Assembly (NCBI GenBank): GCA_026195255.1
Contig: JAPHSS010000002.1
Coordinates: forward strand, 62,001 to 126,000
Length of the DNA: 64,000 nucleotides
Source: Gammaproteobacteria bacterium
GTDB lineage: Bacteria > Pseudomonadota > Gammaproteobacteria > SZUA-229
Direction: 5' to 3'
How positions within the stretch are numbered: the first letter of the stretch is position 1; each line of letters opens with the position of its first letter. The notes under the pieces were generated by a model, which ran no database searches, was not told the origin of the DNA, and saw only the letters and a list, made by a program, of their open reading frames with translations. Position numbers and translations under genes: made by a program. Below are positions 35,690-62,756 of this stretch, one piece after another.

Positions 35690-36154
35690 ATGATACACGA
35701 TAATTTAATAAGAGTGGGAGCATATGGCTGGGATCAATTGCTTTGGCAGGGCACTTTCTTTCCGGATGATTTACCGATTGACTGGCGCTTGAGTTATTAT
35801 GCTAACGAGTTTTCAGCGGTTTTAGTGCCCGAAATTAAGTGGCGTGAGGCGGCTGATGAAATTGAGAGCTGGGCTGATGATGTGCCAGATGACTTTCGGT
35901 TTTATTTTTTAAATTCTCATATTAAAAGTAATGATCATTTAGCTCATGTAACGTTAGGCAATAAATTCGGAGGTTTTGTTGATCCCCAGGCAAATACCTC
36001 GGTAGCGCTAATTAACGTTGGTACTAAATCATTGCGAGAGTGGAAAGACTGGTTACAGGTGAGGGAGTTCGAGGCGATATTTTTAATGGATGATGGATTA
36101 AGGGCTAATCAATTATTAGATTTTAAGGCTTTATTAGAGTTAATGAATTTGTAA
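35690..36154 (+). CDS. DUF72 (YecE)-like protein, about half the usual length
   Basis: 154 residues. The opening IRVGAYGWDQLLWQGTFFPDDLP, then LSYYANEFSAV, IKWREAADEIESWADDVPDDFRFYF matches the N-terminal half of the DUF72 TIM-barrel (IRVGTSGWSYxxWxGxFYP ... LxYYAxxF). The C-terminal half of a normal ~250-residue DUF72 is missing; the last ~60 residues (ALINVGTKSLREWKDWLQV, FEAIFLMDDG) are shorter. It could be a genuine compact relative. Function of the family is unknown. Divergent from the CaCA exchanger. Confidence 0.55.
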   Translation: MIHDNLIRVGAYGWDQLLWQGTFFPDDLPIDWRLSYYANEFSAVLVPEIKWREAADEIESWADDVPDDFRFYFLNSHIKSNDHLAHVTLGNKFGGFVDPQANTSVALINVGTKSLREWKDWLQVREFEAIFLMDDGLRANQLLDFKALLELMNL

Positions 36155-36187
36155 ATTAATCATGGAAGGTTAAGTGCGGTTGTTAGC

Positions 36188-36212
36188 AAAAAAAACCGCT
36201 TTAAAAAGCGGT
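36188..36212 (-). terminator. Intrinsic terminator for the 37-codon microprotein gene
   Basis: The stem ACCGCTTT (36195-36202)/AAAGCGGT (36205-36212), read on the minus strand, is followed by eight T. It lies about 30 bp downstream of the small minus-strand frame at 36244-36357. Confidence 0.8.
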
Positions 36213-36243
36213 ATATTGTTTGCTGAGAAGCAAGTGTTTTGAG

Positions 36244-36357
36244 TTATATCATCTGTGCCCAGATTAAAATTGCAATTGAGGCTAATGCAATAATTGAAAC
36301 TGCTATAACACCACAAAATGTACATGCACCGGTAAAGCCTTTTACAGTATTGCTCAT
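36244..36357 (-). CDS. 37-residue membrane microprotein with CxxC
   Basis: A short minus-strand frame from ATG 36357 to TAA at 36244. AGAGGG lies 7 nt before the ATG and an excellent terminator follows the stop. The product begins MSNTVKGFTGACTFCGVIA: a short polar N-terminus, Cys12 and Cys15 as CTFC, then one hydrophobic helix (about 16-33, GVIAVSIIALASIAILIW) and the end AQMI. This is the size and design of single-pass membrane microproteins. No named family is assigned. Strong start and stop signals make it more credible than a chance frame. Confidence 0.65.
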   Translation of the reverse strand: MSNTVKGFTGACTFCGVIAVSIIALASIAILIWAQMI

Positions 36358-37089
36358 AATTATACCCTCTAAAGTTTTATCATTTAGTTTAAAAAGCAAG
36401 TTCCCTTAAATATCAGCTACATCAACCATGACAGTTATAAGGTTTGTGATTTATAACAAATAAATAATCTATATTCAATGTATTTAATTTTATTGCGCTA
36501 ATAATAATAGTTTATGGTCTTGAGGCTCTAAAATAAGATAATATTAATCAACGAGTTACGATTACTTACCGGTATCATATTGTTTCTGATATCTATCTTT
36601 TATGCGTGATTGAGTTAGAGATTAATAGAGGTTTAGTTGTTTATTCTTGGTTTTATTTTAATTTAAGTTCGTATCTGGCCAAATTAATTTAATATGGCGG
36701 CTATTATCAGCTTGCAGAGATTTTATTGGCCTACAAGCTGGTCGAAAGTCGCTATGACTTTTTCATTAAATATTAACTCAGCAGTTTGTTTGCTTGCCGC
36801 TTACTATCCGCAAAATAGCTTAGTCGACCCTTTAATATATATTGTGGTGTAAATTATGGCCCCATATTTATAGCGGACTTCGATTTTAGTGAAGTTATAT
36901 TCATAAAATATAGTTTTTTATTGAGATCGGACATTTTTTTATAATAAAAAATTTATTGAAAGCTGAATTTACATCTTTTGGGCTTGTCGTAACATTAATC
37001 AGAACTACCCCTAATCAGAACTACCATAGGGAAACAGACTTGTATATAGTGTCGACTAGATCTTAATTGAGGTTATAAGGAACAAAGTT
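36358..37089. other. Intergenic region upstream of mlaF
   Basis: About 730 bp, very AT-rich. On the minus strand it must hold the promoter of the microprotein gene. Near its right end a 14-bp direct repeat (36996-37025) and AAGGA (37077-37081) precede mlaF. I see no other gene or RNA. Confidence 0.5.
36996..37025 (+). repeat. Tandem 14-bp direct repeat upstream of mlaF
   Basis: TAATCAGAACTACC occurs at 36996-37009 and again at 37012-37025, period 16 bp, about 65 bp before the mlaF start. It could be a pair of regulator sites on one face of the helix or a small duplication. Confidence 0.45.
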
Positions 37090-37920
37090 ATCTCGGATTC
37101 TTCTTCAAATACTCTTATAGAAATACGCGGTTTGAGTTACTCCCGTGGTAAAAAAATGATCTTCGATAATATCGATATGGATATTGAGCGAGGTAAGGTC
37201 ACGGCGATAATGGGGCCAAGTGGCTCAGGTAAAACCACCTTGTTAAAGCTTATCGGCGGGCAGCTTAAGCCCGATAGCGGTTCAGTTATTGTAGATGGTG
37301 AAAATGTACACCAGTTAAGCCAGTCGGCGCTTTATGATTTACGCCGACGAACAATGGGAATGTTATTTCAAAGTGGTGCATTGTTAACTGATCTTTCAGT
37401 TTATGACAATGTGGCTTTTCCTCTTCGGGAGCATACAACGTTACCTGAAGAAGCGATTCATCACCTGATTCTACTTAAACTTGAAGCGGTGGGTTTACGA
37501 GGCGCACGGCATTTAATGCCTGCAGAACTTTCAGGGGGTATGGCTCGCAGGGTGGCACTGGCACGTGCTATTGCACTTGATCCGCAAATGATTATGTTTG
37601 ATGAGCCGTTTACAGGTCAGGACCCTATATCAATGGGGGTGCTGGTTAAATTAATTCATGATATGAATCAGGCCCTCGGTATGACTGCAGTGGTGGTATC
37701 ACATGATGTGAACGAAACAGCGAGCATCTCTGATTATATTTATGTGATTTCAGATGGCAAAGTCGTTCAAAGTGGAAGCCCGGATGCACTAAAACACTCG
37801 GATTCAGCCTGGGTGAAACAGTTTCTAGATGGTGATGCGGATGGCCCGGTGCCTTTTCACTATGCAGCAGAGCCATTAATAGATGACTTAATGGGCGGTA
37901 TTAAGAGTGTTAGGTCATGA
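37090..37920 (+). CDS. mlaF: Phospholipid ABC transporter ATPase MlaF (apparent AUC start)
   Basis: ATPase of the MlaFEDB complex that moves phospholipids between the envelope membranes. Conserved: SYSRGKKMIFDNI, Walker A GPSGSGKT, Q-loop MLFQSGALLTDLSV, signature LSGGMARRVALARAI, Walker B MIMFDEPFTGQDP and H-loop VVVSHDVNET. The frame is open upstream of TTG 37132, and family members have ~14-17 residues before the SYSRG motif. The only position that restores this is ATC at 37090 (ATC TCG GAT; AAGGA 8 nt upstream), where ATG would be expected. Either the gene starts at a rare AUC, at TTG 37132, or the base is an error. Ends with ATGA overlap into mlaE. Confidence 0.9.
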   Translation: MSDSSSNTLIEIRGLSYSRGKKMIFDNIDMDIERGKVTAIMGPSGSGKTTLLKLIGGQLKPDSGSVIVDGENVHQLSQSALYDLRRRTMGMLFQSGALLTDLSVYDNVAFPLREHTTLPEEAIHHLILLKLEAVGLRGARHLMPAELSGGMARRVALARAIALDPQMIMFDEPFTGQDPISMGVLVKLIHDMNQALGMTAVVVSHDVNETASISDYIYVISDGKVVQSGSPDALKHSDSAWVKQFLDGDADGPVPFHYAAEPLIDDLMGGIKSVRS

Positions 37921-62381: not shown

Positions 62382-62746
62382 GAAGTTGGCTGGGCAATCG
62401 CTGTATGATTTTATCATAGAGAGGAAAGTCCGGGCTCCAAAGGGCAGGGTGCCAGGTAACGCCTGGGGGGTGTAATGCCCACGGCTAGTGCAACAGAAAG
62501 ATACCGCCTCCGCCTACTTTTAGTGGGTTGAGGTAAGGGTGAAATGGTGCGGTAAGAGCGCACCGCGTTTACTGGTAACAGTGACGGCAAGGTAAACCCC
62601 ACCTGGAGCAAGACCAAATAGAGAAGCTGAGGCGCGGCCCGTGCTGCTTCTGGGTAGGTCGCTTGAGGCGCATAGTGATGTGCGTCCTAGATGAATGATT
62701 GTCACGACTTCGGTTGTACAGAACCCGGCTTACAGGCCAACTTCCC
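62382..62746 (+). ncRNA. rnpB: RNase P RNA (bacterial type A)
   Basis: Catalytic RNA of ribonuclease P, which matures tRNA 5' ends. The 5' end GAAGTTGGC pairs with GCCAACTTC at 62736-62744 (helix P1), followed by a short T-run. The conserved CR-I GAGGAAAGTCCGGGC (62420-62434), ACAGAAAGATACCGCC, GGTAAGGGTGAAA, GTGACGGCAAGGTAAACCCC, GACCAAATAG and the CR-V part AGATGAATGATTGTCAC match bacterial type A RNase P RNA. Exact ends are to within a few bases. Confidence 0.95.
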
Positions 62747-62756
62747 TTTTTTTCCG

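Follow-up and report, generated by a model that had tools for sequence, protein, structure and literature searches.

A conserved CxxC microprotein gene

The main finding of this study is that a 37-codon frame on the minus strand of the window (the whole 64,000-nucleotide stretch of DNA that was analyzed) is almost certainly a real gene, encoding a small membrane protein with a CxxC motif and belonging to an apparently undescribed protein family. The gene (36244..36357, minus strand) runs from ATG to TAA. Its product, MSNTVKGFTGACTFCGVIAVSIIALASIAILIWAQMI, read from window position 36357 to 36244 and 37 aa long before the TAA stop, comprises, according to translation, homologues, helix analysis, and AlphaFold2, an N-terminal tail, the CxxC motif, a single transmembrane helix, and Trp33. 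A ribosome-binding site, AGAGGG (36365..36370, minus strand), lies 8–13 nt 5' of the ATG, and the CTFC sequence that constitutes the CxxC motif occupies codons 12–15 (36313..36324, minus strand). A terminator scan finds an intrinsic terminator (36187..36212, minus strand) whose 7-bp stem (36212-36195, with four G-C pairs) starts 31 nt past the stop and is followed by TTTTTTT. A preliminary description of this DNA, which had proposed a CxxC single-helix membrane microprotein gene with start and stop signals, a correctly spaced AGAGGG, a CTFC motif, and a terminator about 30 bp past the stop, is confirmed on these points, and the frame is conserved in relatives. At 37 residues, it is too short for most gene finders.

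Upstream of the microgene, about 120 bp (121 nt) from its ATG, there is a sigma-70-like TTGAAT-N17-TATAAA, in which both the candidate -35 (TTGAAT, 36473..36478, minus strand) and the candidate -10 (TATAAA, 36450..36455, minus strand, with TGT directly 5' as an extended -10) are kept in the nearest relative, L002. This stretch is 89.1% identical between the two copies, against 71.5–75.7% in the flanks. It is a better promoter candidate for the microgene than the sigma-E promoter suggested earlier on the strength of a GGAACTT. The consensus for sigma-E is GGAACTT-N16-TCTGA-like, and GGAACTT does exist here, but it has no -10 and reads AGAACTT in L002, on which grounds a sigma-E promoter was rejected. 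Among the copies from family f99, L140, L141, L143, L145, and L146 have a conserved, near-palindromic ACCCTATTGAATATA followed by a TTGTTAATAT-like stretch upstream of the microgene, and L135 has the same arrangement in a less exact form; in several of these copies the stretch appears to resemble the promoter of the microgene studied here. Terminator-like sites within 100 nt past the stop occur in 10 of 40 family members, vs 1.07 expected from shuffles. The best explanation for the layout of the gene is that it is free-standing and monocistronic.

Comparison of relatives shows that the frame at 36244..36357 (minus strand) is under selection in the family. In six of seven comparison groups pN/pS is 0.28, 0.12, 0.51, 0.48, 0.15, and 0.21; the seventh, our copy vs L002, gives 1.48, from only five amino-acid changes and one silent change. 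Between these two copies the frame is 94.6% identical, whereas the upstream, leader, and downstream sequences are 71.5–75.7% identical and the stretch from stop to terminator 87.3%. The CxxC motif is present in 39 of the 40 members compared, a count to be read with the weight of the cysteines in the search profile, which favors the finding of CxxC members; the exception, L029, lacks both Cys. In profile A4, once the rows of a CxWC subgroup (described below) are left out, the most conserved positions are Cys12 (25/25), Cys15 (25/25), Ser/Thr27 (25/25), Trp33 (24/25), and Gly9 (20/25). L029 (1501-1608, minus strand, genome G020), in which the sequence FFVASL replaces both Cys, is a copy that lost the CxxC motif. 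It adjoins a TRAP-transporter-like gene, as do L019–L021.

Distribution of the family

To judge from homologous sequences, the family occurs in several gammaproteobacterial groups whose members are for the most part uncultured. When the sequence by itself was searched against 58 related genomes, matches 89 to 38% identical appeared in seven, our own included, counting rows down to E 0.04; three weaker rows were two chance matches and a second copy in G006. Profile A2 found 18 places in 15 of the 54 genomes of the bacterium's own family (E <= 4e-13), and a search of the order gave the same 54 genomes. In a class draw of 369 genomes, profile A4 matched 10 at E <= 0.001, including our own and G004 as well as G157, which was judged a chance match. 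These class-draw matches place the CxxC type in four other gammaproteobacterial families (G120, G270, G400, and G416), and the CxWC subgroup occurs in G098, G147, G179, and G120. A phylum draw of 398 genomes returned our own genome only, its remaining matches being judged chance. In the order of G270, the microgene is present in 14 of 24 genomes, and some genomes carry two copies (G006, G018, G025, G270, and G120). Relatives at unrelated gene positions, in 15 of the 54 own-family genomes and in no fewer than four further families, mark the frame as a gene rather than a product of chance. The count of 40 leaves out as chance L008, L009, L030–L034, L038, L039, L044, and L129–L132, which lie in other genes or have no proper start (L031 was excluded on scores and frames, L129–L132 on the search table only), and L153, a CxWC type found after the count was made.

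Sequence libraries hold no close counterpart of this protein. Neither Pfam, NCBIfam, PADLOC, nor PDB gave a sequence match of note. The CydX model specifically produced no match in Pfam at E <= 5 and none of note in NCBIfam, and profile A3 found no PDB chain at E <= 10, oxidase small subunits included, in a search that has low power for 37 aa. In PHROGs there were weak, single-member stray matches (best 0.003). We found no published description of the family in the open-access literature searched. This is a real protein family absent from Pfam, NCBIfam, and PADLOC, and its bacteria are known chiefly through metagenome bins.

Predicted structure and orientation

Residues 14–32 form a hydrophobic segment (mean Kyte-Doolittle 2.82), and the AlphaFold2 model consists of one helix (residues 4–36, mean pLDDT 77.9), as expected for the single transmembrane helix proposed in the preliminary description. 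Conservation follows a helical periodicity, with a moment at 100 degrees of p=0.0057 over residues 12–33 and p=0.0048 over residues 16–32, without Cys and Trp. Judging from their spacing, C12, C15, A19, I23, S/T27, and W33 would lie on about one helix face. The N-terminal tail has one Lys, and no charged residue follows the CxxC, which suggests that the N-terminus is in the cytoplasm, an orientation that hinges on one charge. With the N-terminus there, the Cys pair would be at the cytoplasmic membrane face. Two familiar roles for cysteines were considered and rejected: a c-type heme site of the CxxCH kind, because the motif reads CTFCG and His follows the second Cys in none of the 40 members; and a lipoprotein, because the hydrophobic stretch comes after the Cys and not before a lipobox Cys.

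Gene neighborhoods

Flanking the microgene are a DUF72-like gene (35690..36154, plus strand; 154 aa), assigned by a weak match to PF01904 (E 0.0043) and found by locus comparison to be conserved beside yrbG, and an ABC-transporter ATPase gene (ABC_tran family model; 37132..37920, plus strand), which we take to be mlaF, as in the preliminary description. The gap between the two, previously given as 930 bp, measures about 977 bp. On the plus strand, the stem of the microgene terminator has a poorer T tail and still passes the scan, so the terminator could serve both genes. Among the loci compared, the microgene occupies this position only in our own species and in L048/L002 (N1D-Bin_4). In L051, yrbG, the DUF72-like gene, and mlaF are present with no microgene, and about 140 bp separate the last two. 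Elsewhere the microgene adjoins pilU-like, TRAP-transporter, sixA-like, or other genes (named by eye). These other neighbors, together with L051, indicate that the microgene is not tied to Mla or YrbG. Its positions differ between genera, and no fixed partner gene was seen in the 12 own-family neighborhoods compared.

FNR/ANR-like boxes and cytochrome neighbors

Ten of 40 members carry, in the 200 bp upstream of the microgene, a sequence agreeing with the FNR/ANR-type box TTGATnnnnATCAA at 9–10 of its 10 positions, vs 0.99 expected from shuffles. Within our own family, 8 of 19 members have such a box, compared with 9 of 280 control genes and with 6 of 136 when the controls are limited to genes having a gap of 120 bp or more, although the p-values for these boxes (9e-7 and 2e-5) overstate independence because related members share boxes by descent. 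Our own copy has no good FNR box, its best TTGATnnnnATCAA match being 8 of 10 (p=0.23).

The CxWC subgroup lies beside multiheme-cytochrome or cytochrome-b genes in four of four places (L172, L173, L174, and L171, in four genomes of different families). In G098, G147, and G179 the microgene comes first in a row that continues with genes for a 6-heme cytochrome, a cytochrome b561-like protein, and a 3-heme cytochrome, while in G120 it is near 18-heme and cytochrome-b-like genes; the G098 genes were checked with family models, and the others were matched by eye. The subgroup is probably related to the CxxC microproteins, as it matches A2 with E 0.006–0.008 and hhalign gives 94% and 1.4e-7, scores that short hydrophobic profiles inflate. 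In our own family, L158 and L159 adjoin 10-heme genes, that of L158 being of OmcA/MtrC type; L159 also adjoins a NapC/NirT-type 4-heme gene, and L161 a 4-heme gene that is NapC/NirT-like by eye. Of 13 own-family neighborhoods (the 12 and the window), three (L158, L159, and L161) have a multiheme gene within 6.5 kb, vs none of 20 control windows (p=0.05; counting the orthologous places L158 and L159 once gives p=0.13). The 64-kb window has no multiheme gene, nor do the three f99 neighborhoods or G400. The FNR/ANR-like boxes and the cytochrome neighbors of the CxWC subgroup, neither of which comes from our own copy, hint at low-oxygen electron transport.

Possible functions of the microprotein

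Our best explanation, which we put forward tentatively and rate as somewhat short of an even chance, is that the microprotein is a small single-helix accessory or assembly subunit of membrane electron transport, used under low oxygen, like CydX or CcoM. In the mechanism that we propose, the free-standing gene encodes a 37-residue single-pass inner-membrane protein whose N-terminus would be cytoplasmic, and its Cys pair, at the cytoplasmic membrane face, would pack against a partner helix that belongs either to a second copy, giving a homodimer, or to some larger membrane protein. We infer with moderate confidence that the partner would be a membrane electron-transport (cytochrome) complex at low oxygen, to which the microprotein would contribute as a small accessory or assembly subunit, its Cys either switching with redox state or binding a metal. 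A bolder version, which we consider improbable, is that two helices pair and their four Cys build a site for a metal or an iron-sulfur cluster at the membrane face, which would serve cytochrome complexes as an add-on electron relay or as an oxygen/thiol switch in several gammaproteobacterial lineages, with the CxWC branch in multiheme operons. If true, the protein would be among the smallest redox-active membrane subunits.

The main rival of the respiratory-subunit reading, possible if rather doubtful, is a free-standing thiol or metal sensor, in which paired helices would bind metal or form disulfides through four Cys and thereby alter a transporter, protease, or kinase, respiration being the condition of expression only. 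The lack of a fixed partner gene in the 12 own-family neighborhoods, the location of the two Cys in the conserved face of the helix, and a gene that stands alone between a promoter and a terminator of its own would all suit a sensor, but no regulated neighbor was found and in the CxWC subgroup the microgene comes first in a series of cytochrome genes. Small size, hydrophobicity, scattered positions, and the two copies in some genomes also recall a type I toxin, a toxic peptide that would act on the membrane and be silenced by an antisense RNA. This we regard as quite unlikely, since nothing of note was matched among the toxin families of Pfam, NCBIfam, and PADLOC, and type I toxins do not typically show a near-invariant CxxC, ribosome-binding sites of the ordinary kind, or FNR-type boxes such as those seen in relatives.

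Two further readings have hardly any probability. That the locus makes no protein, and is either a small RNA or a fortuitous frame ahead of a terminator, fits the promoter and terminator equally, and the changes between our copy and L002 are mostly amino-acid changing. However, the transcript is no more stably folded than shuffled sequences (z 0.57), which does not favor a structured RNA, and conservation of the protein extends across families whose copies lie at unrelated places, six of the seven groups having pN/pS below 1, by which this reading of the locus is largely refuted. A partnership with the Mla lipid-transport or YrbG neighbors is comparably remote. It would account for the yrbG/DUF72 pair and mlaF flanking the microgene in our own species and in L048, yet L051 has yrbG, the DUF72-like gene, and mlaF with no microgene, L048 alone of 14 named loci checked has a microgene there, and homologues elsewhere adjoin other genes.

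Small bacterial membrane proteins of fewer than 50 aa, YohP among them, are alike in size, and the microprotein differs from these by its CxxC and by the lack of a sequence match in the libraries searched. CcoM, like the microprotein, has a single helix. By the tests made, the microprotein would work most like CydX and CcoM while being a member of neither. CydX is a 37-aa small subunit of cytochrome bd oxidase (PMC4325964) and CcoM a 36-aa subunit of the P. stutzeri cbb3 oxidase with a low-oxygen role (PMC10433244). The microprotein shares with CydX its length, a single hydrophobic helix, few conserved residues, and a tendency to be missed in annotation, and with CcoM its size and a link to oxygen limitation (for the microprotein, through boxes in relatives only). 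Unlike CydX, it has a conserved CxxC and Trp, and its gene is not beside cydAB, having the DUF72-like gene and the ABC ATPase gene (presumed mlaF) as neighbors instead; unlike CcoM, it has no PDB sequence match, and no link to a cbb3 gene was seen. Should its connection to cytochromes hold, a Cys-bearing type would be added to the small set of single-helix respiratory subunits, and a testable question would arise on how low-oxygen electron transport is tuned in such bacteria.

Other features of the window

The DUF72-like gene stands beside yrbG in L048–L051, where its PF01904 match extends up to about 200 columns; our own DUF72-like ORF may be shortened. About 110 bp before mlaF is a 14-nt exact direct repeat, TAATCAGAACTACC (window 36996-37025), in two copies 16 nt apart from start to start. 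Both copies are kept in L002/L048, and among the other loci compared there is a single near match only, in L095; the repeat is a possible operator. Farther along, window 62382-62748 corresponds to a bacterial RNase P RNA of class A.
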